Source of the DNA: Blastococcus saxobsidens DD2
Lineage (GTDB): Bacteria; Actinomycetota; Actinomycetes; Mycobacteriales; Geodermatophilaceae
Reading direction: 5' to 3'
DNA: 64,000 nt
Assembly: GCF_000284015.1 (NCBI RefSeq)
Contig: NC_016943.1
Location: 4,257,541 to 4,321,540 of the forward strand
Part shown: in pieces, positions 17,900 to 59,646 of the stretch
How positions within the stretch are numbered: the first letter of the stretch is position 1
Layout of the letters: each line of letters starts with the position of its first letter
The notes under the pieces: generated by a model
The model's database searches: none
What the model saw: the letters and a program-made list of their open reading frames with translations, nothing else
What the model was told of the DNA's origin: nothing
Position numbers and translations under genes: made by a program

Positions 17900-19512
17900 C
17901 GGTCGGTCCCTCCGGCGAGGTCCATGTCGCCGAGGGTGGCGACGACGGCGGGCTCGATCAGCTCCAGCAACGGCTGCGGGTAGACGCCCAGCCCGATGAT
18001 CAGCGCGATCAGCGGGGCCACGACGGCGAGCTCCCGACGGCTGAGGTCGGGGAACCGCGAGCCGCCGCGGGCCGGGGCGGGAGCGCTGACCGTCGCGGTG
18101 GCGGCGGAGGCGCCACCGCGGGCCGGCTCGGGCGCGGGTGCGGGATCACCGCCGTGCACGTCGGCGAGCGGCATCCCGCGCGGCGGGCCGTGCATCGTGC
18201 GCTGGTACATCAGCAGCACGTAGAGGGCGGCCAGGATGATGCCGAGGGTCGCCAGGATCGTGAAGACCGGCCGCTCCGGGAACGAGCCGATCAGCACGAG
18301 GAACTCGCTGACGAAGCTGTTGGTGCCCGGCAGCGCCAGGGAGGCCAGGCCGGCGATCAGAAAGGCCCCGGCCAGCTTGGGCGCGGTGGCCGCGACACCG
18401 CCGTAGTCGCCGATCTGGCGGGAGCCACCGCGGCTGATCAGCATGCCGACGACGAGGAACAGCAGGCCGGTCGCGATGCCGTGGTTGAACATGTACAGCA
18501 CCGCGCCGGTGGCGGCCTCGGTGGTGAAGGCGAAGATCCCCAGCGCGATGAAGCCGAAGTGCGAGATCGACGTGTAGGACACCAGCCGCTTCATGTCGCT
18601 CTGGCCCATGGCCAGCAGGGCGGCGTACAGGATGCCCGCCACCGCCAGCACCAGCACGAACGGCGCGAAGAAGCGGGACGCGTCGGGGAACAGCGGCAGG
18701 CAGTAGCGCAGGAAGCCGAAGGTGCCCACCTTGTCCAGCACGCCGACCAGCAGCACCGCGCCGCCGATCGGCGCCTCGGCACCGGAGTCCGGCAGCCAGG
18801 TGTGGAACGGCACCAGGGGCGCCTTGATGGCGAAGGCGATGAAGAAGCCGAGGAACAGCAGCTTCTGCACGTCGGGGTCGATCTCGAGCTGCCGCAGCGC
18901 GTCGAAGGCGAAGGTGCCCTCGCCGAGCTGGCTGGTGCTCACCACGTAGAGCCCGATGACCGCGGCGAGCATGACCAGCCCGCCGACCAGGCTGTAGACG
19001 AAGAACTTCACCGCCGCGTACTGCCGGCGCGGGCCGCCGAAGCTGCCGATGAGGAAGTACATCGGGACGAGCATCGCCTCGAAGAACACGTAGAACAGCA
19101 GGATGTCGGTGGCGGCGAAGACGCCGACCATCATCGCCTCGAGCAGCAGCAGCCAGGCGAAGAAGACCCGCGCCGGCCGGGGCCCGGCGTCGGCCTCGTG
19201 CCAGGAGGCGGCCACCACCAGCGGCACCAGGACGCCGATCAGGAGCAGCATCACCAGGGCGATGCCGTCGGCGCCCAGCGCGAACTCGGCGCCGAAGTCG
19301 GGGATCCAGGACACCGACGTCGTCAGCTGGAACCGGTCGCCGTCGGGGTCGAAGGTGACCGTCGCGAGGACCGCCAGCAGCAGCACCAGCAGGCTGACCC
19401 CCAGGGTCACCTGCTTGGCGAGCAGGTCCCGCCCGCGGGGCAGCGCGGCGACGACGGCCGCGCCCACCGCCGGCACGGCGATCATGAGCACGAGCCAGGG
19501 GATATCGGTCAC
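17896..19512 (-). CDS. nuoM: NADH-quinone oxidoreductase subunit M
   Basis: A 538-residue proton-channel subunit with about 14 membrane helices. The conserved glutamate helix (FYVFFEAMLVPMYFLIG), AIKAPLVPFHTWLPDSGAEA and the GQSDMKRLVSYTSISHFGF block mark it as NuoM. A hydrophilic Pro/Ala-rich insertion (about residues 450-490) lies before the last helix. The GTG start overlaps the stop of a 15-codon mini-ORF that links it to nuoL. Confidence 0.95.
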   Translation of the reverse strand: MTDIPWLVLMIAVPAVGAAVVAALPRGRDLLAKQVTLGVSLLVLLLAVLATVTFDPDGDRFQLTTSVSWIPDFGAEFALGADGIALVMLLLIGVLVPLVVAASWHEADAGPRPARVFFAWLLLLEAMMVGVFAATDILLFYVFFEAMLVPMYFLIGSFGGPRRQYAAVKFFVYSLVGGLVMLAAVIGLYVVSTSQLGEGTFAFDALRQLEIDPDVQKLLFLGFFIAFAIKAPLVPFHTWLPDSGAEAPIGGAVLLVGVLDKVGTFGFLRYCLPLFPDASRFFAPFVLVLAVAGILYAALLAMGQSDMKRLVSYTSISHFGFIALGIFAFTTEAATGAVLYMFNHGIATGLLFLVVGMLISRGGSRQIGDYGGVAATAPKLAGAFLIAGLASLALPGTNSFVSEFLVLIGSFPERPVFTILATLGIILAALYVLLMYQRTMHGPPRGMPLADVHGGDPAPAPEPARGGASAATATVSAPAPARGGSRFPDLSRRELAVVAPLIALIIGLGVYPQPLLELIEPAVVATLGDMDLAGGTDR

Positions 19513-19556
19513 CGTCGGGACGCCTTTCGATCCGAGGAGGCGGTGCTCGTGCTCAT
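19509..19556 (-). other. Linking mini-ORF between nuoL and nuoM (15 codons)
   Basis: ATG at 19554-19556 overlaps the nuoL stop (ATGA); the frame reads [15 protein letters not shown] and its TGA overlaps the nuoM GTG (GTGA). The 40-base gap is thus fully translated in a stop-start chain. A functional peptide is unlikely; a coupling role is inferred. Confidence 0.5.
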
Positions 19557-21448
19557 CCGCCCGTCACCGCCAGCAGTGCACCCGCGACCACGACCGCGCC
19601 GCCGAGCATCCCGAGCGCATACGTGCGCACGAAGCCGTTCTGCACCCGGCCGAGCCGGGCCGAGGAGCCGCCGAGCCCGGCGGCCAGGCCGTTCACCGCG
19701 CCGTCGACACCCCGGTTGTCCACCCAGACCAGGGCCCGGGTGAGCCACTGCCCGGGGCGCATGAACAGCGACTCGTTGACCGCGTCGGCGTAGAGGGCGT
19801 GCCGGGCGGCCCGCGTGACCGGCGAGACCCGGACCGGCGCGGTGACCGGCACCTCGCGGCGGCCGACGAACAACCAGGCCGCCAGCACGCCGAGCGCCAT
19901 CACGACGGTCACGACCAGGCCGATGATCGCCGGGGCGACCACGTGCGCGGCCTCCGCCGGCTCGCCGAACACCGGCGCCAGCCAGTCCGCCAGCGGGAAG
20001 ACCGCCACCAGCAGGCCGCCGGCGAACACGGAGCCGATCGCCAGCACGATCATCGGCGCGGTCATGACCGGCGGCGCCTCGTGCGGGTGGACGCCGTCCT
20101 CCCACCGGGCGCGGCCGAAGAACGTCATGAGCATCAGCCGCGTCATGTAGAAGGCGGTCAGCCCGGCGCCCAGGACGGCGATGCCGCCGAGCACCCAGCC
20201 CCAGACGTCGCCGCGGTCCAGCGCCACCTCGATGATGGCGTCCTTGGTGAAGTAGCCCGAGAGGAACGGGAAGCCGATCAGCGCCAGGTAGCCCAGCCCG
20301 AAGGTGGCGAAGGTGACCGGCAGCTTCGTCCAGAGCGCGCCGAACCGGCGCATGTCCACCGAGTCGTTCATCGCGTGCATGACGGAGCCGGCGCCGAGGA
20401 AGAGCCCGGCCTTGAAGAACCCGTGCGCGAGCAGGTGCGCGAGGCCGGCGACGTAGCCGGCCGGACCGAGGCCCACGGCCAGGAACATGTAGCCGATCTG
20501 GCTGACCGTGGAGTAGGCCAGGACCTTCTTGATGTCGTCGTAGGCGCAGCCGGCGATCGCCCCGATGAGGAGGGTGAGGGCGCCGATCGCGAGGACGACG
20601 GTGCGGGCGGTCTCGGTCAGGTCGTAGATGGGCGCCGACCGGGCGATCAGGTAGACCCCGGCGGTGACCATGGTCGCGGCGTGGATCAGGGCCGAGACCG
20701 GGGTCGGGCCCTCCATGGCGTCGGGCAGCCACGCCTGCAGGGGGAACTGGCCCGACTTGCCGCAGGCGCCCAGCAGGAGCAGCAACCCGATCGCGGTGAT
20801 CGTGCCGCCCGCCAAGGCCCCGATCGACCCGAAGACGCCGGCGTAGGACGTGGTCCCGAGCTGGGCGAACATCAGGAAGATCGCCAGGGCCAGGCCGACG
20901 TCGCCGACGCGGTTCATGATGAACGCCTTCTTCGCCGCCGTGGCCGCGGCCGGGCGGGTGTACCAGAAGGCGATCAGCAGGTAGGACGCGAGACCCACGC
21001 CCTCCCAGCCCACGTAGAGCGCCACGAAGCTGTTGCCGAGGACCAGCAGCAGCATGGCCGCCACGAAGAGGTTCAGGTAGGCGAAGAACCGGCGGCGCGC
21101 GGGGTCGTGCGCCATGTAGCCGATCGAGTAGACGTGGATGAGTGAGCCCACGCCGGTGATCAGCAGGACGAAGACCGCCGACAGCGGGTCGTAGAGCAGC
21201 CCGGCGGTGACGTCGAGCTCTCCGGCGGCGATGAACGTGAACAGCTCGACGTCGACCGCGCGTTCGTCGAGGCCGGCCAGCTGCACGGTGCAGGCCACGG
21301 CGAGGACGAAGGCGGCGACGACGGTCGCCGTCCCCAGCAGGTGACCCCAGCGGTCGGTGCGCCGGCCGCCCAGCAGCAGCACCGCGGCGCCGGCGAGCGG
21401 CAGCGCGATGAGCAGCCAGGAGGCAGCGAGGAGCCCTTCAGCAGGCAC
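19553..21448 (-). CDS. nuoL: NADH-quinone oxidoreductase subunit L
   Basis: A 631-residue membrane subunit, normal NuoL length, with about 16 helices and the long lateral helix near the C-terminus. Landmarks are [40 protein letters not shown], the lysine helix [18 protein letters not shown] and [20 protein letters not shown]. It is the most distal proton pump of complex I. The GTG start lies 16 bases after nuoK. Confidence 0.95.
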
Positions 21449-21464
21449 TGCAACCCCGTCCCGG

Positions 21465-21764
21465 TCAGTACTTCAGCAGGTTGGCGTCGTCGACCGAGGC
21501 GGACCGACGGGTCCGGTAGATCGACATGATGATGGCGAGCCCGACGACCACCTCGGCCGCGGCCACGACCATGACGAACAGCGCGATGATCTGACCGTCG
21601 ACGGTCCCGGTGGACCGGGCGAAGGTGATCAGCGTCAGGTTCACCGCGTTGAGCATCAGCTCGATGCACATGAACACGACGATCGCGTTGCGTCGCACCA
21701 GGACGCCGACCGCGCCGATCGTGAACAGTATCGCGGCGAGCACCAGGTAGTAGCTCAGCGTCAC
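21465..21764 (-). CDS. nuoK: NADH-quinone oxidoreductase subunit K
   Basis: A 99-residue, three-helix subunit of the membrane arm. The two buried glutamates needed for proton transfer are in [11 protein letters not shown] and [11 protein letters not shown]. The GTG start at 21762-21764 is chosen because it gives the normal length, follows a GAGGAGGAG ribosome site and overlaps the stop of the linking mini-ORF from nuoJ. Confidence 0.95.
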
Positions 21765-21865
21765 GACTCCTCCTCGCTGTCCCCCGCGAGCGGGAGGTGC
21801 GCCCAGCTCGTCGGAACCGTGCCGCGGGGTGCTCTGCTCACGGGTTCGCCCGCCAGTTCCCTCAC
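21761..21865 (-). other. Linking mini-ORF between nuoJ and nuoK (34 codons)
   Basis: GTG at 21863-21865 overlaps the nuoJ stop, and the frame ([15 protein letters not shown] to LAGDSEEES) ends in a TGA that overlaps the nuoK GTG. The whole 97-base gap is read. Its last codons supply the GA-rich nuoK ribosome site. No domain is seen. Confidence 0.5.
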
Positions 21866-22722
21866 CTGTGCTCCCCGCCGGTCCGGCCGCCCGGGGTGTC
21901 GCTGAGCGTGGGGTCGTGGGAGCCCAGCGCGGCGTCCGGGGACCCGAGCTGCTCCCGGCCGGTCGGGCGGGGCATCTGCTCGACCTGCTCCGGCTCGATC
22001 CCGGTGGCGAAGCTGTCCTCGGCGAGGCTGCCGTCGGGCAGCAGCGCCGGCGCGGCCACCGAGGTGGCGCGGGCGTGGACGCCCGGGCCGGGGAAGGTCT
22101 GCGGGCGGTCGGTGAGGAAGCGGGCCCGCGACAGCTCCTTCTGGGTCTGCCGGCTGCCGGGTTCCCGCTCGACCTGGGTGAGCAGCAGCGCACCGACCGC
22201 GGCGACGATGAGCAGTGCGCCGGTGACCTCGAAGGCCAGCAGGTAGCGGGTGTAGAGCAGCCCGGCGATCGCCTCCACGTTGCCCGATGCCGGGCCACGG
22301 ACCCCGCCCTGGACGGCCTCGAGGCCGGCGACGGGCAGGTCCTGGGTGGCGCGGGCGATGCCGGCGCCGACGAGTGCGGCGAACCCGGCCCCCAGCAGCA
22401 GCGCCGCGATCCGCTGCCCGCGCAAGGTCTCCACCACGGAGTCGGACGAGTCCCGCCCGACGAGCATGAGCACGAACAGGAACAGGATCATGATCGCCCC
22501 GGTGTAGACGATCACCTGCACCGCGCCGAGGAAGGGCGCCTCCTGGACGACGTAGAAGATGCCCAGCGACAGCATGGTCAGCACCAGCCACAGCGCGGAG
22601 TGCACCGCGTTGCGGCTGAGCACCATGCCCAGCGCCCCGGCCAGGGCGAGTGGGCCGAGGATCCAGAAGACGACGGCCTCGCCGGTGCCGATGACGACGC
22701 CGGCGGTCTCCAACCCGTTCAC
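21862..22722 (-). CDS. nuoJ: NADH-quinone oxidoreductase subunit J with long C-terminal tail
   Basis: A 286-residue subunit. Five membrane helices occupy about residues 15-190, including the conserved [20 protein letters not shown] helix at the base of the quinone chamber. The remaining 90 or so residues are hydrophilic and rich in Pro, Ala, Gly and Glu, ending [14 protein letters not shown]. coli NuoJ lacks this. The GTG start at 22720-22722 overlaps the nuoI stop. Confidence 0.93.
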
Positions 22723-28651: not shown

Positions 28652-29737
28652 TCATCGCCTCCGCTGAGGGCCGCGGCCCTCGATCGTCCGGGACGGGCCA
28701 TCGGGCCCCTGGGGAGCTGGGGGTCGGCCGCCGGGCCCTTGGCCGGTGGTGCCCGGCTCCTGCCCCGCGGGCGTGTCGGTGCCCTCCCTGCCGTCCGGCA
28801 GCCGCCGCCCGGCCGGTTCCGCGGCGTCCGGGTGGGAACCCGCGGCGCCGGCCTTCTCCGCCGGGGTGTCGGCGGCGGCAACGCGGGCGTCGGCCGCCTC
28901 CTTGCCCGGTGTCTCCCCCGTCGTCCCGCTCGGCCGAACGGTCTCCCGCGGCTCGCCGGTGTCGGCGGGCTCGGGCTCCGGACCGCGCATCGGTGGTGCC
29001 GACTCGCCGCGCTCGGCGGCCAGCCGAACCCCGCGCAGGCTCGGCTCGTAGCTGCCCGGCGCATCGACGGCGGCGGCGGCGGCGACGGCGTCGGCGTGCT
29101 GGGAGAACCCGGCCAGCTGGCGGGAGACGCCCTTGAAGTCGGTCAGCGGGGCACCGCGCGTGGGCAGCGGCTTCTCGCCGCGGCGCAGGGCCGCGACCAG
29201 CTCGCGGGCGCTGTCGACGTTCTGCTGGTCGTAGAACTCGTAGTCCACCGTGACGACCGGCGCGTAGTCGCAGGCGGCCAGGCACTCGGCGTGCTCGAGG
29301 GTGACCGAGCCGTCGGCGGCCGTCTCGTCGTGGCCGACGCCGAGGTCGGCCTTCAGCGCGTCGAAGATCCGCTGGCCACCGAGGACGGCGCAGAGGGTGT
29401 TGGTGCACACGCTGACCAGGTGCCGGCCGGTCTGCCGCCGCTTGTACATCGTGTAGAAGGTGGCGACCGCCGCGACCTCGGCCGTGGTCAGGCCCAGTTC
29501 CTCCGCGCAGAACGCCAGCCCCTGCGGTGAGACGAAGCCCTGGTAGCTCTGCACCAGGTGCAGCATGGGGAGCAGGGCCGAGCGCGGCTGCGGGTAGCGG
29601 GCCATGACCTCCCGCGCCTCGGCACGGGTCTGCTCGGTCAGCGGCGGCAGTGCGTCGAGCACCTCCGGCCGGCCCTCGAACGGGCTCGAGTCCAGGCCGG
29701 TGGTCGCCGCTCCTTCGGGCGAGCCGGGGAAGCTCAT
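28652..29737 (-). CDS. nuoE: NADH-quinone oxidoreductase subunit E with extended C-terminus
   Basis: A 361-residue protein. Residues 35-200 are the thioredoxin-like [2Fe-2S] subunit with ligands Cys111, Cys116, Cys152 and Cys156 (VCTNTLC and [10 protein letters not shown]). From about residue 212 onward 150 residues are low-complexity (Ala, Pro, Gly, Glu, Thr), ending [18 protein letters not shown]. The usual family length is 160-260. The extra tail is probably disordered and its role unknown. ATG start overlaps the stop of the mini-ORF that links it to nuoD. Confidence 0.93.
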
Positions 29738-29814
29738 CGGTCGGCGCTCCTTCCCTGGGTCGTCTCCGCGGCCGCTCCGCTCCTCGCTCGTTCCGCGCTG
29801 CGATGCTCGCTCAC
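29734..29814 (-). other. Linking mini-ORF between nuoD and nuoE (26 codons), built on a dispersed repeat
   Basis: GTG at 29812-29814 overlaps the nuoD stop (GTGA); the frame runs [13 protein letters not shown] to QGRSADR and its TGA overlaps the nuoE ATG (ATGA). About 45 of its bases match, inverted, the repeat at 43456-43505 (core ACGAGCGAGGAGCGGAGCG). A mobile-looking intergenic repeat has therefore been placed so that translation stays continuous. Confidence 0.5.
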
Positions 29815-31142
29815 CTGTCGACTCCTCCCATCACGGGGTCGATCGAGGCGATGGCCGCGATGACGTCGGCGATCATGCCGCCCTCGCTCATCACCGCCGT
29901 GGCCTGCAGGTTGACGAAGCTGGGGTCGCGCACATGCACGCGCCACGGCCGGGTGCTGCCGTCGCTCACGACGTGGTAGCCCAGTTCTCCGCGGGGCGAC
30001 TCGATCGGCACGTACACCTGCCCGGCGGGCACCCGGAAGCCCTCGGTCACCAGCTTGAAGTGGTGGATCAGGGCCTCCATCGACTGGCCCATGATGTGCC
30101 GCACGTGGTCCAGCGAGTTGCCCATGCCGTCGGGCCCCAGCGAGAGCTGCGCCGGCCAGGCGATCTTCTTGTCCTCGACCATGACCGGGCCGGGCTCGAG
30201 CCGGTCGAGCGCCTGGGCGATGAGCTTGAGCGACTCGTTCACCTCCGCCATGCGCACCAGGTAGCGGCCCCAGGCGTCACAGGTGTCGGCGGTCGGCACC
30301 TCGAAGTCGTAGGTGTCGTAGCCGAGGTAGGGCTCCACCTTGCGCAGGTCCCACGCCAGGCCGGTGGCGCGCAGGATCGGCCCGGTGACGCCGAGCGCGA
30401 CGCAGCCGGTCAGGTCGAGGTAGCCGGCGTCCTTGAGGCGGTTCTGCCAGATCGGCTGGCCGGTGAGCAGCCGGTGGAAGTCGGCCACCCGCTTCGGCAT
30501 GACCTCGAGGAACTCGCGGATGTGCCCGACCGCCCCCTCGGGCAGGTCCTGCGCCAGGCCGCCGGGCCGGATGTAGGCGTGGTTCATCCGGAGGCCGGTG
30601 ATCTCCTCGAGCAGGTCGAGGACCATCTCCCGCTCGCGGAAGCCGTTGGTCATGCCCGTGAGGGCACCCATCTCCATGCCGAACGTGGCCAGGGCGACCA
30701 GGTGCGAGGCGATTCGGTTGAGCTCCATCACCAGCACGCGGATGGTGGCCGCGCGCTGGGGGATCTCCACGCCCAGCAGCTTCTCGACGGCCATGCAGTA
30801 GCCGGCCTCGTTGAACAGCGGGGCCAGGTAGTCCATCCGCGTCACGAAGGTCGTGCCCTGGACCCAGTTGCGGTACTCGGTGTTCTTCTCGATGCCGGTG
30901 TGCAGGTAGCCGATGACCACCCGTGCCTTGGTCACCGTCTCGCCCTCGAGGTCGAGGACCAGCCGCAGCACGCCGTGGGTGGAGGGGTGCTGCGGGCCCA
31001 TGTTGACGACGAGGCGTTCCGCGCCGTGCGGATCGGCGCCCAGCGTCAGGTCCCAATCCCCACCGGTCACGGTGTAGACGCGGCCCTCGGTGGTCTCGCG
31101 GGAGCCGGCGTAGGGGTCGTTCGGGTTGTACGTGGTGCTCAT
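29811..31142 (-). CDS. nuoD: NADH-quinone oxidoreductase subunit D
   Basis: A 443-residue hydrogenase-like subunit that forms the quinone-binding site with NuoB and NuoH. Conserved blocks are [20 protein letters not shown] (the HPSTHG loop contacting quinone), [16 protein letters not shown] and the C-terminal [15 protein letters not shown] with [11 protein letters not shown] 31140-31142 is preferred (GGAGG seven bases upstream, ATGA overlap with the preceding mini-ORF) over a GTG six bases earlier. Confidence 0.95.
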
Positions 31143-31287
31143 CGACACACCTCCAGTGGGGAACCGGAAGCCTGCGGCCCGCTCCCTCGCTGCTCCGCAT
31201 CGCTGCTGCGCAGGGCAACCCGACGCCTGCGGCGCTCTTCCGCAGGGGAACTCGTGCCTTCGGTGCTCATCAGTACTCCCCGCTCAC
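31139..31287 (-). other. Two linking mini-ORFs between nuoC and nuoD (5 and 43 codons)
   Basis: First: GTG at 31285-31287 overlaps the nuoC stop and reads VSGEY, ending with TGA at 31270-31272. Second: ATG at 31268-31270 shares a base with that TGA (TGATG), reads [15 protein letters not shown] through to SGSPLEVCR and stops at 31139-31141, overlapping the nuoD ATG. Five reading frames (nuoB, nuoC, the two mini-ORFs, nuoD) are thus joined without an untranslated base. Confidence 0.5.
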
Positions 31288-32720: not shown

Positions 32721-33083
32721 TCAGTCCCACTCGAGCCCGCCGCGCCGCCACTCGTAGGCGAAGGCGAGGAAGACGGTGCCGATGAACACGACCATCGCGA
32801 CCAGACCCCACACGCCCAGCGCGTCGTTGGCGACGGCCCAGGGGTAGAGGAAGACGATCTCGATGTCGAAGACGATGAACAGCATCGCCGTCAGGTAGTA
32901 CTTGACCGGGAAGCGGCCGCCGGTGAGCGGCTGGTCGACCGGCTCGATGCCGCACTCGTAGGCCGCCAGCTTGGCCCGGTTGTACCGGCGCGGCCCCACG
33001 TAGGGGGCGACGGCGACCGAGAACACCGCGAACCCCGCGGCGAGCACGAACAGCCCGACGATCGGGACGTAGGTCGAGAGCAT
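32721..33083 (-). CDS. nuoA: NADH-quinone oxidoreductase subunit A
   Basis: A 120-residue subunit with three membrane helices. The loop [19 protein letters not shown] with its essential Cys and the helix [19 protein letters not shown] are diagnostic. ATG 33081-33083 gives the normal length; a start 17 residues earlier would add a His/Pro-rich leader that belongs to no family member. The ATG shares its A with the stop of a preceding mini-ORF (TGATG). Confidence 0.95.
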
Positions 33084-33183
33084 CAGCAGCAGCCTAGGGT
33101 GATGGGGGTCACGGACTGGTGATGGGGCGTGCACTGAGCGTGCGTGTCGTGTCGTCGACTCGTGGTCATGTCGGCCACCTCAC
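33083..33183 (-). other. Two linking mini-ORFs between menJ and nuoA (5 and 28 codons)
   Basis: GTG at 33181-33183 overlaps the menJ stop, reads VRWPT and stops at 33166-33168. Its TGA overlaps an ATG at 33167-33169 that reads MTTSRRHDTHAQC to PITLGCC and stops at 33083-33085, sharing one base with the nuoA ATG. The gap has no obvious promoter, supporting co-transcription of menJ with nuo. Confidence 0.5.
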
Positions 33184-43592: not shown

Positions 43593-43874
43593 TCAGGCGG
43601 CGGGTGCGGCGCCGAACAACCGCCGCCAGCCGCGGCGCGGTGGCGCGGCGGCAGCCCGGTCCTGGTCGTGCTCCTGTGCCTGGTCACCGCCGGGCCAGCC
43701 CAGGCCCCCACCGCCCTCGCGGGCGGGCGGGCCGGGCCAGCCGACCTCGCCCTCCTCGCCCGGTTCCCGCGCGTCGCCGCGGTGCGCGCCGTCGCCCTCC
43801 CCCGCGCGGCCGGCGAGCGCCGCCGCGACGAGCGGGTGCGACGACTCCCCGTCGGCGGCCGAGTGCCTACCCAC
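43593..43874 (-). CDS. Hypothetical protein, 93 residues, Gly/Pro-rich
   Basis: The GTG at 43872-43874 has a good ribosome site (GGGAGG eight bases upstream). The protein starts VGRHSAADGESSHPLVAAAL, continues with acidic Gly-rich repeats (GEEGEVGWPGPPAREGGG, GLGWPGGD) and ends APPRRGWRRLFGAAP. No membrane segment. Follows ccsB in the same direction through two linking mini-ORFs. Unknown function. Confidence 0.55.
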   Translation of the reverse strand: MGRHSAADGESSHPLVAAALAGRAGEGDGAHRGDAREPGEEGEVGWPGPPAREGGGGLGWPGGDQAQEHDQDRAAAAPPRRGWRRLFGAAPAA

Positions 43875-44000
43875 GTCGTGCCTCCCGGCGGGTGCGTGCC
43901 CTGGTCGTCTGCTCCATGGGGGCATGGAAGCACGCGGATCCGACATCGGTCACCGTCCCGGCGCCCGATCCCGCCCGCACGGGGTACGGCCGCGGATCAC
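43867..44000 (-). other. Two linking mini-ORFs between ccsB and the 93-residue protein
   Basis: GTG at 43998-44000 overlaps the ccsB stop; VIRGRTPCGRDRAPGR ends at 43950. Its TGA overlaps a second GTG at 43951-43953 reading VTDVGSACFHAP to REARRG, which stops at TAG 43867-43869, eight bases inside the next gene. The 122-base gap is fully covered. Confidence 0.4.
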
Positions 44001-44932: not shown

Positions 44933-46547
44933 GCGGGGGGACCTCCGGTTCGGATGCGGTGCGGGCGGGCGCGGCGGTGGTCAGCGCACCCTGCAGGTCG
45001 TCGAGCAGTGCGGTGGACCGCCCGCCGCTCTCGCCGCCGCCCCGCGTCAGCGAGGCCAGCGTCAGCACGGTACCGCCGCGCTCACCGCCGGGCTCCGCCC
45101 GGGCGAAGACCCGCTCCCGGCGGAGCAGCAGCATGCCGAGCAGCCCGGCGAGCAGCGCGATCGCCGCGGCCAGCACCCACAGCTGGCCGGGGTCGTGCGA
45201 GTACTGCAGCGCGGCGAACTCCTTGACCCCGCTGAAGGTGATCCGGGTGCCGTCGGGCAGCTCCAGCGACTCCCCCACCGACAGGTTGGCCGAGCCGACC
45301 TCGCTGAGCCGGCCGCGCTCGATCTGGCTCCCGTCGAGGGAGTACACCGACTGCGGCAGCCCGGAGTCCAGGCCGAGGTAGCCCTGGTACGCCACGACCG
45401 CGACCTGCGGGGCGAGCGGCCGGGGGTCGACCGAGGTGAGCACCCCGCCCTGCAGCAGCCCGGTGGGTGCGAGAAACCCCTCGATGGCCAACTGCTCGTC
45501 CTGGCCGGGGATGTCGGGCAGCTTGAGCGCGCCCTGGCTGGCCAGCGTCTGTGGGTCGCTGGGCAGGAACGGGACGGTGAGGTCGGAGAACGTCGTCCCG
45601 TCGGGAACGGTGACGGTGAACGTCGGGCTGAAGCCGTGTCCGGTGACGTAGACGCGGTCACCGTCGAGCCGCAGCGGGTCGTTGACCCCGATCGTGGTCG
45701 GGCGCCCCTCGGCCGACGGGGCCCCGTAGCGGATGTCGGCGGTGAACGAGGCGGCGGTGAGATTCTCCTCGTACTCGGCCGTGAACTGCTCGAGGTCCAC
45801 GCACAGGGGGCTGAGGTCGCCGCTGTCCACCAGCGGCCCGGCGGAGTAGGTGTCGTACTGCTGGAACGAGTTGCAGAACCCCTGCCCCTCGGTCACCAGG
45901 ATGCTGCCCTCGTAGCCCCACAGCTTGCCGCCGGCCAGGCCGAGCAGCAGCGCGAGCAGGGAGAGGTGGAAGACCAGGTTCCCGGTCTCCTTGAGGTATC
46001 CCTTCTCGGCGGACAGCTCCGGGCCCCGCCCGCCGTCCCGGCGGACGACCCGGAACCGGCGCACGCGCAGCTCCTCCTCGACGACGTCGAGGGCGGCCGC
46101 CGGAGGCACCGGCACCGTCAGCTCGGCGGAGTCGGGCAACCGGAGCATGTTGCGCGGCGCCGGGGGCGGCGGCGTCCGCAGGGCACGGGCGTGCTCGGCG
46201 GCCCGCGGCACGACGCAGCCGATCAGGGAGACGAACAGCAGCAGGTAGACCGCGGCGAACCACGGTGAGCTGAAGACGTCGAACAGGTACAGCCGGTCGA
46301 GCACCGGAGCCAGGTCGGGATGGTCGGTGAAGTACTGGTTGACGTTGTTCTGCGACAGCGAGCGCTGCGGGAGCAGCGATCCGGGCACCGCCGCCAGCGC
46401 CAGGAGGAACAGCAGCACGATCGCGGTGCGCATCGCGGTGAGCCGCCGCCACCAGCGCAGCAGCAGCCCGCCCAGTCGCCGGCCCGCCGACGGGGGCCGG
46501 GGCGGGGGCGGTGCGGCGGCCGCCCGCGGCGGAGCCGTGGTGGTCAC
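44925..46547 (-). CDS. resB: Cytochrome c biogenesis protein ResB (Ccs1)
   Basis: A 540-residue membrane protein: cytosolic Pro/Ala-rich N-terminus, three N-terminal helices (first at AMRTAIVLLFLLALAAVPGS, preceding LLPQRSLSQNNVNQYF), a large extracytoplasmic domain, and a final helix near LWVLAAAIALLAGLLGMLLL. It is the partner of CcsB in system II heme attachment. The GTG at 46545-46547 is the start because it follows GGAGG and overlaps the last unit of the upstream repeat array; longer frames only translate that array. Confidence 0.93.
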   Translation of the reverse strand: MTTTAPPRAAAAPPPPRPPSAGRRLGGLLLRWWRRLTAMRTAIVLLFLLALAAVPGSLLPQRSLSQNNVNQYFTDHPDLAPVLDRLYLFDVFSSPWFAAVYLLLFVSLIGCVVPRAAEHARALRTPPPPAPRNMLRLPDSAELTVPVPPAAALDVVEEELRVRRFRVVRRDGGRGPELSAEKGYLKETGNLVFHLSLLALLLGLAGGKLWGYEGSILVTEGQGFCNSFQQYDTYSAGPLVDSGDLSPLCVDLEQFTAEYEENLTAASFTADIRYGAPSAEGRPTTIGVNDPLRLDGDRVYVTGHGFSPTFTVTVPDGTTFSDLTVPFLPSDPQTLASQGALKLPDIPGQDEQLAIEGFLAPTGLLQGGVLTSVDPRPLAPQVAVVAYQGYLGLDSGLPQSVYSLDGSQIERGRLSEVGSANLSVGESLELPDGTRITFSGVKEFAALQYSHDPGQLWVLAAAIALLAGLLGMLLLRRERVFARAEPGGERGGTVLTLASLTRGGGESGGRSTALLDDLQGALTTAAPARTASEPEVPPRD

Positions 46548-46849
46548 AGCGCCTCCTCGCTGGCGCTCGTCGGTGCCGTTCCGGTCGCTCTGCCCATGTG
46601 TGACCTCGCACGCTCGGTCACAGCGCCTCCTCGCCGGCGCTCGTCGGTGCCGTTCCGGTCGCTCTGCCCATGTGTGACCTCGCACGCTCGGTCACAGCGC
46701 CTCCTCGCCGGCGCTCGTCGGTGCCGTTCCGGTCGCTCTGCCCATGTGTGACCTCGCACGCTCGGTCACAGCGCCTCCTCGCCGGCGCTCGTCGGTGCCG
46801 TTCCGGTCGCTCTGCCCATGTGTGACCTCGCACGCTCGGTCACAGCGCC
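46545..46849 (-). repeat. 74-bp tandem repeat (four copies) encoding a chain of coupled mini-ORFs
   Basis: Four direct copies at 46545-46618, 46619-46692, 46693-46766 and 46767-46840, plus nine further bases. Copies two to four look identical; the first has one change. In the minus direction each copy is a 25-codon ORF (VTERARSHMGRATGTAPTSA then GEEAL) starting with a GTG that overlaps the previous TGA; the period is 78 minus 4. The first GTG overlaps the ccdA stop and the last TGA overlaps the resB GTG. Each copy carries GGAGG before the next start and a GTGACC/GGTCAC inverted repeat. Confidence 0.92.
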
Positions 46850-50726: not shown

Positions 50727-50743
50727 CGTGTCCCTGACCGGGC

Positions 50744-51778: not shown

Positions 51779-53319
51779 TTGCCCTCGCCTTCCTCCTCGG
51801 CCCGGCGCGCCGCGGCGAACTCCGCCAGCGCGTCGACCAGCGGGCCGACGGCGGCCGTCTCCGGCTGCACGTCCACGCGCAGGCCGAACTCCTGGGCGCT
51901 GGCCGCCGTCGCCGGGCCGATCACCGCGACGACGGTCTTGGCGTGCGGCTTGCCGGCGATGCCGACCAGGTTGCGCACCGTGCTGGACGAGGTGAAGCAG
52001 ACGGCGTCGAAGCCACCGCCCTTGATCGCCTCGCGCACCGTCGCGGGCGGCGGCGCCGCCCGCACGGTCCGGTAGGCGGTGACGTCGTCGATCTCCCAGC
52101 CGCGCTCGACCAGACCGGCGGCCAGGGTCTCGGTGGCGATGTCGGCCCGCGGCAGGAGCACGCGGTCGATCGGGTCGAAGACGTCGTCGTAGGGCGGGAA
52201 GTCGGCCAGCAGGCCCTGGCTGGACTGCTCACCGGTCGGCACCAGCTCGGGCTGGATGCCGAAGTCGCGCACCGCCTCGGCGGTCTGCTCGCCGACGCAG
52301 GCGACCTTCACCCCGGCGAACGCCCGGGCGTCCAGGCCGAGCTCGACGAACTTCTCCCGGACTGCCTTCACCGCGTTGACCGAGGTGAACACGATCCAGC
52401 CGTAGCGGCCGGTGACCAGGCCCTTGATCGCGCGGTCCATCTGCGCCGGGCTGCGCGGGGGCTCCACGGCGATCGTCGGCACCTCGACCGGCACGGCGCC
52501 GTAGGCCCGCAGCCGGTCGCTCATCTCGCCGGCCTGGTCCTTGGTCCGCGGCACCAGCACCCGCCAGCCGAACAGCGGGCGGCTCTCCCACCACGAGGTG
52601 CGGGCGCGCTTGTCGACGGCGGCACCGATGGTGGCCACCACCGCGCCGCTGAGCGGGTCGAGACCGGCGGTCTTCTCGGCGACGGCCGCGAGCTTGGTGA
52701 CGATGCTCTTCTGGCCGGTGCCGGAGCCGCCGGTGGTGACCACGACGGGGGTGCTGCCGGAGAGGCCACCCTCGACCAGCCGCACCGCGGCGTCGGGCAG
52801 CTCGTCGGCCGTGCCGTGCAGGACCAGCGTGCCGCCCGCGCCGGCGGCGGCACCGGCCAGCGCGGTGACGTCGACGCCGCTGCGGAGGTCCGCGGTCACC
52901 GCGGTGCTGCCCATGGCGACGCCCGCGAAGGCGGGGACGGCGGTGGCGGTGGCGACGCCGGGTACGACGTCGAAGGGCACCGAGGTGCGGCCCACGGCCA
53001 GCACCTCCTTGACCACGGCGTCGGAGGTGTAGGGGTCACCGGTCACGAGGCGCACCACGACCGAGCCGTTCTTGGCGGCGGCGACGGCCCCCTTGGCGAT
53101 GTCGGCGGGTTCACCGGTGACCGGCGTGAGCTCGGTCTCCGGGTTGGCCTCGCGGACGGCGTCCTGGAGAGCAGCGGCCACGTCGGGGTCGACGAGGATC
53201 ACCGCCGCCTCGGCGAGCGCCGCGGTCGCCCGGGCGGTGAGCATGCCCGGGTCACCTGGCCCGGCGCCCACGAACACGACCCGGCCCGACTGGCCTGCGG
53301 TCTTGCGGAAGCGCGTCAT
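51775..53319 (-). CDS. hemD: Fused uroporphyrinogen methyltransferase-like / uroporphyrinogen-III synthase
   Basis: A 514-residue two-domain protein. The N-terminal half (about 1-245) resembles tetrapyrrole methyltransferases (FVGAGPGDPGMLTARA), but the usual LKGGDP box reads LVTGDP and other substrate residues differ, so methylation is uncertain. The C-terminal half (about 255-495) is uroporphyrinogen-III synthase (WRVLVPRTKDQAGEMSDRL, WIVFTSVNAVKAVREKF, VCFTSSSTVRNLVGI), closing the tetrapyrrole ring after HemC. This fusion is standard in actinobacteria. ATG at 53317-53319 overlaps the mini-ORF that links it to hemC. Confidence 0.9.
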   Translation of the reverse strand: MTRFRKTAGQSGRVVFVGAGPGDPGMLTARATAALAEAAVILVDPDVAAALQDAVREANPETELTPVTGEPADIAKGAVAAAKNGSVVVRLVTGDPYTSDAVVKEVLAVGRTSVPFDVVPGVATATAVPAFAGVAMGSTAVTADLRSGVDVTALAGAAAGAGGTLVLHGTADELPDAAVRLVEGGLSGSTPVVVTTGGSGTGQKSIVTKLAAVAEKTAGLDPLSGAVVATIGAAVDKRARTSWWESRPLFGWRVLVPRTKDQAGEMSDRLRAYGAVPVEVPTIAVEPPRSPAQMDRAIKGLVTGRYGWIVFTSVNAVKAVREKFVELGLDARAFAGVKVACVGEQTAEAVRDFGIQPELVPTGEQSSQGLLADFPPYDDVFDPIDRVLLPRADIATETLAAGLVERGWEIDDVTAYRTVRAAPPPATVREAIKGGGFDAVCFTSSSTVRNLVGIAGKPHAKTVVAVIGPATAASAQEFGLRVDVQPETAAVGPLVDALAEFAAARRAEEEGEGK

Positions 53320-53414
53320 CGCGTGCTCCTGATCCTGGCCCGACTGCGTCGGGCGTCTGGTATGGCCCGGATCGTCCGGGCGTCTGCGGGGGTCTGGGAA
53401 GGGGCGGCGCTCAT
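53316..53414 (-). other. Linking mini-ORF between hemC and hemD (32 codons)
   Basis: ATG at 53412-53414 overlaps the hemC stop; the frame reads [20 protein letters not shown] then ARRSRARIRSTR and its TGA overlaps the hemD ATG, ATGA at both ends. The 91-base gap is fully read. It is basic and disordered; a coupling role is more likely than a functional peptide. Confidence 0.5.
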
Positions 53415-54397: not shown

Positions 54398-55773
54398 GCC
54401 GGGCCTCCCGGTCGGTCGGGGTCGACGGTGACGGCGTCGGCCAGCCGGCCGGCCCCCGGGGTGACGTCGGCGTCGATGCCCAGGCCGAACAGCGCCCGCA
54501 GCGCTCCGGCGTAGTCGGTGCCGCCAGGAGTCGCGGCCAGCTCCTTCACCCGGACCGTCGGCTCGTGCAGCAGCTTGTCGACGACGCGGCGCACCGTGCG
54601 GGCGATCTCCGCGCGGGCCCGGGCGTCGAGGTCGGGGAGCCGGCCGGCCAGGCGCAGCAGCTCGGCGTCGACGACATCGGCGGCCTGGCTGCGCAGCGCG
54701 GAGACGGTCGGCGCCACCTCGGCCGCCCGCCGCTCGGCGCGCAGCAGCGCCGTCTCGGCCTCGATCATGGCGCGTGCGGCGGCGATGTCGTCGGCGGCGA
54801 CCGGGGTCGCCGCGGCGCCGTCCTCCCGCCGCTCGCCCTGCAGGAGGGCGGTGTTCCGCTCGCCCTGCAGAAGGGCCAGGTCCACCACGTGCACGCCCGG
54901 CAGCGCGGCGACGCCCGGGTCGACGTCCCGGGGCAGCGCCAGGTCGATGACCACGAGCGGCCGGTCGGCCCGGTCGCCCATGGCGGCGGTGACCGTGTCG
55001 GTGCCGATCACCAGGCCGGAGGCGCCGGTGCAGGTGAGGAGGACGTCGGCGGCGGCCAGCTCCGCGCCCACGTGCGCCATGGGTGCGGGGCGACCGCCCA
55101 CCGCATCGGCGAGCCGCTCCGCCGACGCCTCGGTGCGACTGCTCACGACCACGTCGGCGCCGCGACGGGCCAGCGTGGTGGCGGCCAGCGCGCCCATGGA
55201 ACCCGCCCCGACCACCAGCACCGGGCGGCCGGCCAGGGCGCCGATCCGCGACTCGGCGCGGTCGAGGGCGACCGAAACCAGCGAGGCGCCGGCCCGGTCG
55301 ATCCCCGTCTCGGAGTGGACCCGCTTGCCCACCCGCAGCGCCCGCTGGGCGACCGGGTGGAGGGCGCGGCCGACGGCGCCCTCCTCGCGGGCGACCGCGT
55401 AGGCCGCGCGCAGCTGGCCCAGCACCTGCGTCTCGCCGACGACCATCGAGTCCAGCCCGGCGGCCACCGTGAACAGGTGCGCGACGGCCTGGTCCTCGTA
55501 GTGCACGGTGACGTACGGGGACAGCTCCTCGACCGTGGCGCCGGCCTGCCGGGCCAGCACCCGGCTGACGTCGGTCACCCCGCCGTGGAAGCGCTCGACC
55601 TCGGCGAAGACCTCGACCCGGTTGCAGGTCGCGAGCACGAGCGCCTCGGTGACATGGTCGCTCTCGAGCAGCTCGTGCAGGGCCTTGACCCGGTCGTCGG
55701 CGTCCATGGCGAACTGCTCGAGCAGCGCGACCGGGGCGGTCTGGTGGCTCACGCCCACCGCGAGGAGGGTCAT
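54394..55773 (-). CDS. hemA: Glutamyl-tRNA reductase
   Basis: A 459-residue enzyme. [14 protein letters not shown] starts the catalytic domain, Cys50 in [12 protein letters not shown] is the nucleophile, and [20 protein letters not shown] is the NADPH fold. It makes glutamate-1-semialdehyde from glutamyl-tRNA, the control point of heme synthesis. A short repeated stretch ([17 protein letters not shown]) lies in a loop at about 310-325. It follows rex with an ATGA overlap, as in the Streptomyces rex-hemACD operon. Confidence 0.94.
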
Positions 55774-56432
55774 GCCGACACCTCCCCCGCGGGCACGGCC
55801 CGCTGCTGACCGAGGAAGGCCAGCACCTGCAGCTCGACGGAGAGGTCGACCTGCCGGACGTCGACCCCCGCCGGCGCGGTCAGCGTCACCGGCGCGAAGT
55901 TGAGGATGCTGCGCACCCCGGCCGCGGTCAGCCGCTCGCAGATCTGCTGCGCGACCTCCGCGGGCGTCGCGATGACCCCGATGGAGACCCCCGTGCCGGT
56001 CACGGTCGCCTCCAGCTCGGTCATGGGCTGCACGGTGAGACCACCGATGCGCTCACCGACGCGGTCGGGGGCGGCATCGAACAGGCCGGTGAACCGGAAG
56101 CCCCGGCTGCCGAAGCCCGCGTAGTCGGCGAGCGCGGTGCCGAGGTTGCCGAGGCCGACGAGCACGCAGGCGCGGGACTGCTCGGCACCGAGCACCCGGG
56201 CGATCCGCTCGCGCAGTGCCCGCACGTCGTAGCCCACCCCGCGCACGCCGCAGGAGCCGAGGTGGGACAGGTCCTTGCGCAGACCGGCGGGGTTCACGCC
56301 GGCGGCCGAGGCGAGCTCGCCGGAGGAGACGGTGGTCCGGCCGCCGTCGGCGAAGCCGGCGAGCACCCGCAGGTACACGGCCAGACGAGCGACGGTGGCT
56401 TCCGGGATGGTCCGGAGCCGCGGCTGGATCAC
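55770..56432 (-). CDS. rex: Redox-sensing transcriptional repressor Rex
   Basis: A 220-residue repressor. Winged HTH at [16 protein letters not shown] and [15 protein letters not shown], then the Rossmann domain with [19 protein letters not shown], and the C-terminal swap helix. Rex binds DNA when NAD+ is high and leaves it when NADH rises, controlling respiratory genes. GTG 56430-56432 is chosen (GGAG six bases upstream); a GTG four codons earlier is possible. Candidate operators are before this gene and before menJ-nuo. Confidence 0.93.
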
Positions 56433-56524
56433 GGGGCTCTCCACAGCAGTCGCGCCCGCGGACCCGGCGGGCGCCGGGGCGGAGCTGCGACATCGGAACG
56501 CGAGCGGGGACGCTCGCGCCCGCC

Positions 56525-56553
56525 ACGGTAGCCGCTTGTGAACGCAGGAACAA
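56525..56553 (-). promoter_or_regulatory. Putative rex-hem promoter with imperfect Rex operator
   Basis: On the plus strand 56536-56553 reads TTGTGAACGCAGGAACAA: the left half is a perfect Rex half site and the right half matches TTCACAA at five of seven positions. On the minus strand it overlaps a -35 TTGTTC (56548-56553) and, after a 17-base spacer, a -10 TACCGT (56525-56530), about 93 bases before rex. Autorepression is inferred. Confidence 0.55.
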
Positions 56554-56697
56554 AGTCGCCGGGAGGGCACGGGGCCGCTGACCAGGTCGGATCCGGCCGG
56601 TTGTGGCAGAGACCACCGTAACCGCCCGTCCCCGGCCGCCCGGATGGGGGGGTCTCCGGTGCGGCGCACGCCCAGGTCAGGCCCGAGCCGGGCCCGT

Positions 56698-56943
56698 TCA
56701 GGCCAGGCCGAGGTCCCGGCGCAGGCGGGGCACGTCCAGGGTGAAGTAGGAGTGCTCGCGGCCGTCGAGGAGCAGCACCGGCACCCGGTCGCCGTAGTCG
56801 GCTTGCAGCTCCGGATCGCTGTCGACGTCGACCTGGTGCACCTCGAGCCCGGCCTGGGCGGCGATCGGCACGAGCTGCTCGGTGGCGGTCAGGCAGAGAT
56901 GGCAGCCGTCGCGGCCGAGCAGCTGCAGCCGTGGCTCAGCCAT
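56698..56943 (-). CDS. Glutaredoxin-like thiol-disulfide protein
   Basis: An 81-residue thioredoxin-fold protein with the active site GRDGCHLC (Cys15, Cys18) and the cis-Pro region DRVPVLLLDGRE, the DUF836/glutaredoxin-like type found before rex in actinobacteria. Probably reduces a protein disulfide. ATG 56941-56943 overlaps the acyl-CoA ligase stop by eight bases. A 265-base gap follows before rex, so the rex-hem transcript likely starts anew. Confidence 0.85.
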   Translation of the reverse strand: MAEPRLQLLGRDGCHLCLTATEQLVPIAAQAGLEVHQVDVDSDPELQADYGDRVPVLLLDGREHSYFTLDVPRLRRDLGLA

Positions 56944-58552
56944 CCGCCGGCCCTCCCGTCGCCACGGGGACCGCCGCACCGTCGGCGCCGGTCAGCCCCA
57001 GCTCGCGCAGCCGGGCCCGGCTGACCTTGCCGGTGAGCGAGTGCGGCAACGAGGGCAGGAAGTACACCGACGACGGCACCTTGTACCGGGCCAGCGACTG
57101 CGCGGCGTGCTCCTGCAGCTCGTCGATCGTCAGCTGCCTGCCCGGCGTCAGGACGACGACGGCGCGCACCGCTGCGCCCGTGCGCGGATCGGGGACGCCG
57201 ATGACCGCGCTCTCCACGACGGCCGGGTGCTGGTCGAGCACCCGCTCCACCTCGGCCGGGTAGACGTTGAACCCGCTCACGAGGATCAGGTCGCTGCGCC
57301 GGTCGACCAGGTGCAGATCGCCGTCGGCGTCCCGGTAGGCCAGGTCGCCGGTCCGCAGCCAGCCGTCGGCGCCGGGCCCGTCGGCGCCGTCGGGCCAGTA
57401 GCCGGAGAAAAGGTTGGGGCCGCGCACCCAGATCTCGCCGGGACCCTCCTCGGCGTCACCGGGGTCCTCGTCGTGGTCCGCGACGGCGGAGCCGTCCGCG
57501 TCGGCGGGGAGATCCACGGGCACGGTCCCGATCGTGGCGGTGTCCCGCAGGGTGAGCTCGAGCCCCGGCACCGGCCCGCCGATGCAGGCCGGCTTGGGCC
57601 GCCCGGTGGCCAGCGTGCTGGCCACCACCGGCGCGGCCTCGGTCAGGCCGTAGCCCTCCCATACTGTGACGGCGGCGCGCTCGCGCATCGCCGTCCAGAC
57701 CTCCTCGGGCAGCGGGGCGGCACCGGCCGACGCGATCCGGACGGCGGCGAACCCCCGGCGGAGCGCGGCATCGGGGTGGGCGGGGTCTTCGAGGGTGGTC
57801 GCGTCGGCGGCGGCGAGCCATGCCTGGTACATCGGCGGGGCCCCGGGCACCGCGGTCACCTGCTCCTCTGCCATGACCTCCAGCGAGAGCCGGGGATCGA
57901 AGCTCTCCTGCAGGACGGCGCAGGCGCCGGTGGCGGCGACCAGCCCGAACCCGGCGTTGAGGCCGTAGACGTGGAAGAGCGGCAGCACCAGCAGCACCCG
58001 GTCGTCGGGCCGGACCGGCGGTGGGGTCATGGCCAGGCACTGCTCCTGGTTGGCCCGCAGGGCGGCTGAGGTGAGCATCGCCCCGCGCGGCAGGCCGGTG
58101 GTGCCGCTGGTGTAGCAGAGGAAGGCCAGCGCCTCCGGGTCGTCGGCCACCGCGACCGGCGGTCCCTCGGCCTCGGGCGGTCCCGGGCAGACCGGCACCC
58201 CGGCGAGCTCGTCGCGGTCCGAGGCGGCCACCAGCAGCGCCGCGCCGGAGTCGACGAGGACGTGCTCGAGCTCCGGGTCGGTGTAGGCGGTGTTCACCGG
58301 CACGACCACCAGCCCGGCCCGCAGCGCACCCAGCACGGCACGCAGCCAGTCCAGCCCGTTCGGCAACTGGACGGCGACCCGCTCCCCGTGCGTCAGCCCG
58401 CGGCCGGCGTAACCGGCGGCGACCCGGTCGGCCGCCGCGTCCAGCTCGCCCCAGGTGAGCCGCCGGTCGCCGACCACCACCGCCGGTGCGCCGGGGTCCC
58501 GCCCGGCGGCGGCCCGGACCAGCGCGGCCAGCGAGGTGCCTGCCTCGGACAC
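56936..58552 (-). CDS. Acyl-CoA synthetase (AMP-forming ligase)
   Basis: A 538-residue adenylate-forming enzyme. ATP motif FLCYTSGTTGLPRGAML, VWEGYGLTEAAPVVAS, GWLRTGDLAYRDADG and RRSDLILVSGFNVYPAEVE, with a catalytic Lys in LTGKVSRARLREL. It activates a carboxylic acid, probably a fatty acid, with ATP and CoA. An acidic insertion (about 340-375, rich in Asp and Glu) precedes GEIWVRGPNLFSGYW. Substrate unknown. Divergent from the sigma factor gene. Confidence 0.87.
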   Translation of the reverse strand: MSEAGTSLAALVRAAAGRDPGAPAVVVGDRRLTWGELDAAADRVAAGYAGRGLTHGERVAVQLPNGLDWLRAVLGALRAGLVVVPVNTAYTDPELEHVLVDSGAALLVAASDRDELAGVPVCPGPPEAEGPPVAVADDPEALAFLCYTSGTTGLPRGAMLTSAALRANQEQCLAMTPPPVRPDDRVLLVLPLFHVYGLNAGFGLVAATGACAVLQESFDPRLSLEVMAEEQVTAVPGAPPMYQAWLAAADATTLEDPAHPDAALRRGFAAVRIASAGAAPLPEEVWTAMRERAAVTVWEGYGLTEAAPVVASTLATGRPKPACIGGPVPGLELTLRDTATIGTVPVDLPADADGSAVADHDEDPGDAEEGPGEIWVRGPNLFSGYWPDGADGPGADGWLRTGDLAYRDADGDLHLVDRRSDLILVSGFNVYPAEVERVLDQHPAVVESAVIGVPDPRTGAAVRAVVVLTPGRQLTIDELQEHAAQSLARYKVPSSVYFLPSLPHSLTGKVSRARLRELGLTGADGAAVPVATGGPADG

Positions 58553-58750
58553 GTCATCTCCTGTCGTCGGGGCGGTCAGGACCGGCCTCCGGCGCGCGCT
58601 GTGGGACGCGCCCGGGCATGCTGCCGTGGACGAGCTGTGGCGATGTTGTCACCATGGGGGCCGCGCCGCAGCCCGCGCGCCGTATCGGTGCGCGATCGGA
58701 ACAGGACGGTCCTGGCACACAGCGGGCCGACGAGGAGGTCGAACGCCCGC

Positions 58751-59530
58751 ATGCCGCACCCGCTGGACGCCGAGCGCTCCACCGGCGCGGCCGCCCGGCC
58801 CCGACCGGGTCCGCGGCCGACGCCGTACCCCCGGCCCAGCTCCGAGGCGCTGCCCGTCCGCGCGCCGGACGACGCTCCCGGGCCGGTTCCGGCGGAGCCG
58901 GCTGACGTGCGTGACGAGTCCGCCGACCTGCCGACCGAGGTCGTCGCCGAACTCGCCGATGCCGACCGGGCGGTGACGGCCGGCGACGTCGACGTGTGGG
59001 AGCTGGTCCGGCGGGCGCAGGACGGCAACGCGGAATCGTTCGGCCGCCTCTACGACCACTACGTGACGCTGGTGCACCGCTACGTCTACCACCGGGTGGG
59101 CGACCGGGCGACGGCCGAGGACGTGACCAGCGAGACGTTCGTGCGGGCGCTGCGGCGGATCGACTCGCTGTCCTTCCAGGGCCGTGACGTCGGCGCCTGG
59201 CTGGTGACGATCGCCCGCAACATCATCCGCGACCAGGTGAAGAGCAGCCGCTTCCGGCTCGAGGTGAGCACCGCCGACATGCGGGACGCCGACCGCGCCA
59301 CCGACGGGCCCGAGGACGCGGTGCTCCAGCACCTCACCAACGAGCAGCTGCTGGCCTGCGTGCGGCAGCTGGGGAGCGAGCAGCAGGAGTGCATCGTGTT
59401 GCGCTTCCTGCACGGTCTGTCGGTGTCCGAGACTGCCGAGATCATGGGCAAGAAGGAAGGCGCCATCAAGGCGCTCCAGCACCGGGCGGTCCGGCGGCTG
59501 GCGGGGCTGCTGCCCGAGGGGCTGCGGTGA
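58751..59530 (+). CDS. ECF sigma factor, BldN-like
   Basis: A 259-residue sigma factor. Region 2 spans about 92-165 (NAESFGRLYDHYVTLVHRYV, TAEDVTSETFVRALRR, WLVTIARNIIRDQVKS) and region 4 about 195-255 (EQQECIVLRFLHGLSVSETA, GAIKALQHRAVRRLAG). This matches the BldN group. The first 85 or so residues are a Pro/Ala-rich then acidic leader, comparable to the pro-sequence removed from Streptomyces pro-BldN. GAGGAGG precedes the ATG at 58751. The next gene encodes a membrane protein with DUF5667, the layout of bldN-rsbN. Confidence 0.87.
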   Translation: MPHPLDAERSTGAAARPRPGPRPTPYPRPSSEALPVRAPDDAPGPVPAEPADVRDESADLPTEVVAELADADRAVTAGDVDVWELVRRAQDGNAESFGRLYDHYVTLVHRYVYHRVGDRATAEDVTSETFVRALRRIDSLSFQGRDVGAWLVTIARNIIRDQVKSSRFRLEVSTADMRDADRATDGPEDAVLQHLTNEQLLACVRQLGSEQQECIVLRFLHGLSVSETAEIMGKKEGAIKALQHRAVRRLAGLLPEGLR

Positions 59531-59646
59531 ACACGCCCCGGTGCTGGTGCGTAACCGACCGGACACCCACGTCGTTGCACAGGTCGCAGCGGGTGCCGGC
59601 TGGCGGCGCTCCGCGCACCGACGCGAGGACGGGGGGTGGCAGGTGA
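59527..59646 (+). other. Linking mini-ORF between the sigma factor and DUF5667 genes (39 codons)
   Basis: GTG at 59527-59529 overlaps the sigma stop (GTGA); the frame reads VNTPRCWCVTDRTPTSLHRS and runs to RTGGGR, and its TGA at 59644-59646 overlaps the GTG at 59643 of the next gene. The junction supports 59643 as the true start of the DUF5667 gene. Confidence 0.5.

Follow-up and report, generated by a model that had tools for sequence, protein, structure and literature searches.

Gap-spanning mini-ORFs in Blastococcus saxobsidens as probable ribosome relays of two origins, mobile repeats and selected repeat-free gaps

Results

Nine chains of short frames between co-directional genes

The window analysed here is a 64,000-nucleotide stretch (G000:C1:4257541-4321540) of the one-contig, 4.88 Mb genome of Blastococcus saxobsidens DD2, with a GC content of 70-79% in 4-kb steps. 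It carries nuo, ccsB, ccdA-resB and hemC-hemD genes and a sigma-DUF5667 gene pair. The preliminary description had claimed that nine gaps between these genes are spanned by short open reading frames, and all nine chains were found in the window sequence, including the two-link gaps (5 then 28, 5 then 43, and 16 then 28 codons) and a single 8-base overlap. They are listed below, with dispersed repeats assigned to types A, B and D.

19509..19556, minus strand: nuoL-nuoM relay of 15 codons, without recognisable repeat
21761..21865, minus strand: nuoJ-nuoK relay of 34 codons, modified type A repeat
29734..29814, minus strand: nuoD-nuoE relay of 26 codons, type B repeat
31139..31287, minus strand: nuoC-nuoD relay of 5 + 43 codons, type D repeat start at 31245-31269
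33083..33183, minus strand: menJ-nuoA chain of 5 + 28 codons, ambiguous
43869..44000, minus strand: chain of 16 + 28 codons between ccsB and the next gene, not conserved
46548..46843, minus strand: ccdA-resB relay made of four type A units of 74 bp in tandem
53316..53414, minus strand: hemC-hemD relay of 32 codons, without recognisable repeat in this genome
59527..59646, plus strand: sigma-DUF5667 relay of 39 codons, strict chain

In the nuoJ-nuoK repeat, a REP-like palindrome takes the place of the core GCC and makes the repeat 24 bases longer. Each ccdA-resB unit is a 25-codon frame running from GTGA to GTGA with its own GAGGAG, and the last one ends at the resB GTG at 46547. The chain after ccsB ends in the 8-base overlap with the GTG at 43874, where a conserved GTGGGTAGGCAC places the start of the next gene.

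Other features share some of these gaps. Within the sigma-DUF5667 relay (window 59551-59576, plus strand), a GTAACC...CGTCGTT pair recurs in same-genus loci and in some order-level relatives; it resembles an ECF sigma promoter and perhaps reflects autoregulation. The hemC-hemD gap (window 53320-53410, minus strand) contains inverted repeats of the GCCCGA...TCGGGC type, whose pairs, as judged by eye, co-vary in some relatives. A search of the window for known RNA families at gathering scores returned none.

Linking is unusual in the window and near chance in the genome

We called a gap strictly linked when its frames are joined by overlaps of 1 or 4 bases. By our own gene calls, the window has 15 same-strand gaps of 20-300 bases, seven of which are strictly linked; the ccdA-resB gap counts as linked only if more than three links are permitted. 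When gap interiors were dinucleotide-shuffled with flanks retained, 4.8 linked gaps were expected, and 5 of 200 shuffles reached seven. In 40 other stretches of the genome, each of 17.5-20 kb, 12 of 246 gaps were linked against 9.3 expected, a count reached in 13 of 200 shuffles, and with repeat-bearing gaps removed the sample fell to 7/235. The window is unusual in linking, whereas the genome at large is not, and a genome-wide relay rule was not borne out. Non-repeat gaps with NTGA at both ends likewise had no frame preference (lengths of 0/1/2 mod 3 in 1/8/9 cases, n=18). The genome sample speaks for chance as a rival origin of the links: at 70-79% GC, common NTGA ends and long stop-free stretches would produce meaningless ones.

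Interior shuffling was set aside as the sole null. With flanks and length fixed, shuffled interiors still link almost as often as the real ones (18.2 of 21 for hemC-hemD, 18.7 of 20 for nuoC-nuoD), so that the signal at a junction rests on its length and ends.

The linking frame is kept across relatives

Scoring covered eight junctions plus a number of controls at up to 34 loci, own genome counted in, using in each relative the homologue of the window start rather than the start that would link, and took in gaps of 5-400 bases. At hemC-hemD, all 21 same-genus gaps were linked despite nine distinct lengths (61, 64, 82, 88, 91, 94, 109, 121 and 130). At nuoL-nuoM, 28 of 29 scored gaps were linked (30 family loci; locus L063, with a gap of 57, is linked too), and the linked lengths take 16 values from 28 to 111, those of 0 mod 3 finishing in an 8-base overlap. 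Linking was also found in 20/20 gaps at nuoC-nuoD (34 loci), at 16 of 17 scorable same-genus loci for sigma-DUF5667 (20 loci in all), and in every gap at nuoB-nuoC (4/4), nuoJ-nuoK (4/4) and ccdA-resB (5/5), with 4 of 5 at nuoD-nuoE. Direct overlaps replace the gap at 29 of 34 nuoD-nuoE loci and 27 of 31 nuoJ-nuoK loci; across the eight junctions, loci without such a gap were scored as direct overlaps of 1, 4, 8 or 11 bases, with two of 10 at nuoB-nuoC. In order-level relatives, hemC and hemD overlap by 4 bases at 5 of 9 loci. Of the three unlinked exceptions, two carry a C ahead of the TGA and the third has a GTGC start. A further apparent counterexample in genome G017 (gap 47, 48248-47673 junction) was discounted, as by our own reading the start was seemingly called inside the gene.

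Taking one row per distinct gap length and a random insertion of 0-2 bases as the random-frame expectation, 51 of 54 lengths at the eight junctions were linked against 20.8 expected. The larger contributions came from nuoL-nuoM (16/17, 7.7 expected), hemC-hemD (9/9, 3.4), nuoC-nuoD (9/9, 3.0) and sigma-DUF5667 (6/7, 2.2). The nominal P of 1.2e-21 is overstated because related genomes share history, and the distinct lengths drawn from them are not fully independent. At two control junctions, nuoA-nuoB (0/30) and nuoK-nuoL (0/31), a C ahead of the stop makes linking impossible, and control junctions with C before TGA had no 3-base periodicity of gap length (distinct lengths of 0/1/2 mod 3: 3/4/2 for nuoA-nuoB, 3/7/5 for nuoK-nuoL; menJ-nuoA had 6/3/6). 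The excess of linked lengths and the lack of periodicity at unlinkable junctions both argue against chance, which we regard as an improbable explanation. The comparison with shuffled gaps proposed in the preliminary description put the genome near chance; the random-frame comparison put the lengths found at specific junctions far from it. That description had also considered relatives that keep a gap and lack the overlaps; the opposite was seen, as seven of the nine junctions change length and keep the chain.

The two other junctions fared differently. The chain after ccsB, linked at only 3 of 19 loci, did not hold up as a relay and fits chance. The menJ-nuoA chain is present in the window as described, with ambiguous comparative support: it is linked at 9 of 32 loci, namely all nine with A or G before the upstream TGA, where shuffling expects 0.7, and has five distinct linked lengths against 2.9 expected under random frame (P 0.062). 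Given nine links against 0.7 by shuffling, chance is uncertain even there.

The menJ-nuoA gap also contains a conserved promoter-like TAGGGT. A conserved CACCCTAGGGTGC-like stretch (gap at window ~33083-33180, minus strand) lies a few bases upstream of the nuoA start in most relatives and is possibly the promoter of a leaderless nuo mRNA. A second NuoA-family gene is located at G000:C1:1862200-1862481.

The path is kept, not the peptide

The linking frame persists at hemC-hemD, nuoL-nuoM and sigma-DUF5667, although species differ there in both the sequence and the length of the gap. The mini-ORFs could encode conserved small proteins, having open frames, ATG or GTG starts and, in places, a Shine-Dalgarno sequence. 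However, variability across the three codon positions is flat, both for sigma-DUF5667 (0.432/0.431/0.442, 10 sequences) and for hemC-hemD (0.126/0.100/0.109, 6 sequences), GC by codon position is 0.65/0.73/0.80, unlike that of genes here (e.g. 0.70/0.48/0.98), and lengths range from 5 to 45 codons. Conserved small proteins are thus highly improbable. The last codon of HemC comes in nine kinds, always leaving A or G before the TGA; in the genome sample, 380 of 601 TGA stops follow C. What is maintained at these three junctions is the path, with no peptide signature.

Dispersed repeats supply the frame at other junctions

The inserts at nuoB-nuoC, nuoC-nuoD, nuoD-nuoE, nuoJ-nuoK and ccdA-resB have sequence in common across junctions and species, and at these five junctions empty sites with a direct overlap were also seen. 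The type A unit is 77 bp long and bounded on either side by NTGA; it holds an open frame of 26 codons and a GAGGAG that lies five bases upstream of the following start. Its consensus reads GTGAgCGAGCtTGCGAGcTCAC, then some 30 bases of lower conservation, then GACGAGCGCCAGCGAGGAG, with five bases separating this from (A/G)TGA. Among the matches listed, 92 unique units have a mean identity of 0.74, and stops number 2, 34 and 1 in the three frames, per 2208 codons each, which leaves a second frame almost without stops too. An RNA consensus fold of the 92 units was weak (-7.3 kcal/mol).

In the own genome, 41 type A cores were found at up to 2 mismatches, against one in the reversed control. For 40 of them a locus was available, giving 33 sites: 18 co-directional and linked, seven co-directional and unlinked (one by a single base), five at starts whose upstream neighbour is divergent, two before an opposite gene and one inside an ORF. 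Tandem arrays in this genome have 2 to 4 units. A scan of named genomes covered at least 118 stretches and yielded at least 129 matches, at least 88 between co-directional genes and at least 29 at a locus edge, with at least six next to a divergent upstream gene, at least one before an opposite gene and at least five inside called genes. Among the matches listed, invaded starts are NTGA in 80 of 81 cases (other starts, 270/722), core-to-start spacing is 5 in 75 of 81, and linking holds for 64 of the 70 repeat gaps that NTGA bounds on either side. At up to one mismatch, the core occurs in 1-48 copies in 40 of 48 family genomes, is absent in eight, and occurs 0-1 times in 32 genomes outside the family; the genera among the matches listed are Blastococcus, Geodermatophilus, Modestobacter, Pseudonocardia, Sciscionella, Actinophytocola and Solihabitans. 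As for the other types in the own genome, type D was linked at 5/5 co-directional sites and type B, more loosely, at 6/16. The relay reading is weakened by this looseness of type B, by the seven unlinked type A sites, by the second type A frame with few stops and by the near-chance linking in the genome at large.

Several arrangements stand beside these counts. Three tandem 41-bp type D units (G000:C1:2312697-2312803, L032) make up a three-link chain whose frames have 14 codons each. Type A or B repeats enclose a REP-like palindrome, ctgggggcacctcccgcttgcgggggac, at several places (window 21765-21861, minus strand; L046, L050, L378), and an antisense type B repeat in L004 near 11720 also yields a linked gap, of 79 bases. 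A plasmid home of the repeats was rejected, as the ccdA-resB array had no match in 72,556 plasmid records.

Because ccdA-resB, nuoJ-nuoK, nuoD-nuoE and nuoC-nuoD carry dispersed repeats, part of the relay pattern is a property of mobile elements. The relay reading of the preliminary description stands in that the frame is kept at seven junctions; it had overlooked the MIRU-like repeats at four of them, a label given by the description of their design, not by MIRU sequence. The links might then be an insertion footprint only, with NTGA duplicated, a length of 2 mod 3 by accident and nothing selected, as the 77-bp type A unit with NTGA at both ends and its linked tandem arrays would suggest. Against this, hemC-hemD, nuoL-nuoM and sigma-DUF5667 hold the frame without recognisable repeats, type A units of 74, 77 and 80 bp are all linked, and an array of 78-bp units still has a total length in frame. 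We consider a mere footprint unlikely, though less so than chance.

A complement of the target inside type A

The left NTGAN of type A is complementary to an inner N'TCAN'. Among the matches listed, base 5 pairs in 111 of 115 units (52.5 expected) and the left first base is complementary to its inner partner in 68 of 74 (51.3 expected). Base 5 of the invaded gene, a position beyond the element, is identical to the left base in 55 of 73 cases among the matches listed (30.3 expected; 0 of 20,000 permutations), and the agreement is 43 of 61 (23.6 expected) when only distinct gene starts are taken. In the own genome the match is 16/22 against 9.1 expected (P 0.0013), on the 22 of 40 places that remained once inner units of arrays and places without either motif had been dropped. 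Base 1 of the invaded start had no match signal among the matches listed, either with the left end (55/73, 51.5 expected) or with the inner complement (33/48, 32.4 expected). Two explanations would fit the base 5 pattern equally: insertion guided by pairing, and duplication of 5 bp followed by maintenance of the stem.

Discussion

We propose that the gap-spanning mini-ORFs are probably ribosome relays of two origins, mobile repeats on the one hand and selected repeat-free gaps on the other. The anatomy, dispersal and frame conservation of the chains, like the absence of a peptide signature, can be read from the sequences; the events behind them are inferred. Types A (77 bp), B and D would insert at (A/G)TGA starts, mostly at start/stop overlaps, leaving NTGA at both ends of the insert so that both host genes stay intact. 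The frame of the insert would open on the upstream stop and close on the downstream start, and type A would supply the Shine-Dalgarno GAGGAG five bases before that start. At hemC-hemD, nuoL-nuoM and sigma-DUF5667, selection would preserve the chain while indels and sequence turnover reshape the gap. Most likely, a ribosome that has completed the upstream gene starts again on the mini-ORF, which takes it to the downstream start in the manner of an ordinary 4-base overlap; the benefit of such reinitiation may be coupling or cover against Rho, and the preliminary description had suggested prevention of polarity and balanced subunits.

Around MIRUs, the mycobacterial interspersed repetitive units reportedly described by Supply et al. 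in 1997, "DTGA site" is a name in use. MIRUs are described as short, apparently mobile dispersed repeats at start codons; they hold an ORF coupled to the host gene with -4 spacing and also occur as tandem arrays (PMC12548453). Their sizes range over 40-100 bp (PMC2734929). According to PMC4213456, a 77-bp unit exists and the hosts are restricted to M. leprae and the M. tuberculosis complex. Type A shares the dispersed, partly tandem units of 40-100 bp (77 bp, 41 cores), the start-codon site and the internal ORF coupled at -4 spacing, but not the host range, since its hosts are Geodermatophilaceae, genera of Pseudonocardiaceae type and some others; the inner complement of the target is noted here for type A. 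Among the papers listed, titles and abstract openings of the Geodermatophilus, Blastococcus and Modestobacter literature do not mention such repeats. Coupling by start-stop overlap, or termination-reinitiation, is the subject of a review (PMC12548453). The 1-, 4- and 8-base overlaps at each link here are of that kind, but one intermediate frame or several, without a kept peptide, span a gap of 28-292 bases. What is known, then, is the MIRU-type design; what is new, on the sequence comparisons, is coupling that appears to be maintained at gaps without recognisable repeats.

A short target beside a hairpin-like complement is a feature of REP/BIME and IS200/IS605-type elements, and type A is similar in its target and complement. 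However, the Y1 transposase (PF01797) was found in 0 of 48 family genomes; the search spanned 80 genomes, and the three that carry it belong to other families. An IS200/IS605 element or RAYT was therefore rejected as mobiliser. Tentatively, the inner N'TCAN' of type A might guide the choice of start codon by pairing with NTGAN targets, the bridge and the Shine-Dalgarno sequence might make insertion nearly neutral even at a sensitive site within an operon, and the host might then keep the bridges as product-free relays; we hold this combined scheme to be possible rather than probable.

For annotation, relay frames can mimic N-terminal extensions and small genes, as illustrated by a 586-aa resB ORF that begins within the ccdA-resB repeat array. 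The 5-base complement offers a testable rule by which such elements may select their start codons, and the MIRU way of life would extend beyond mycobacteria. Above all, the comparisons suggest that a reading frame may be conserved solely because ribosomes travel along it, free of any product.
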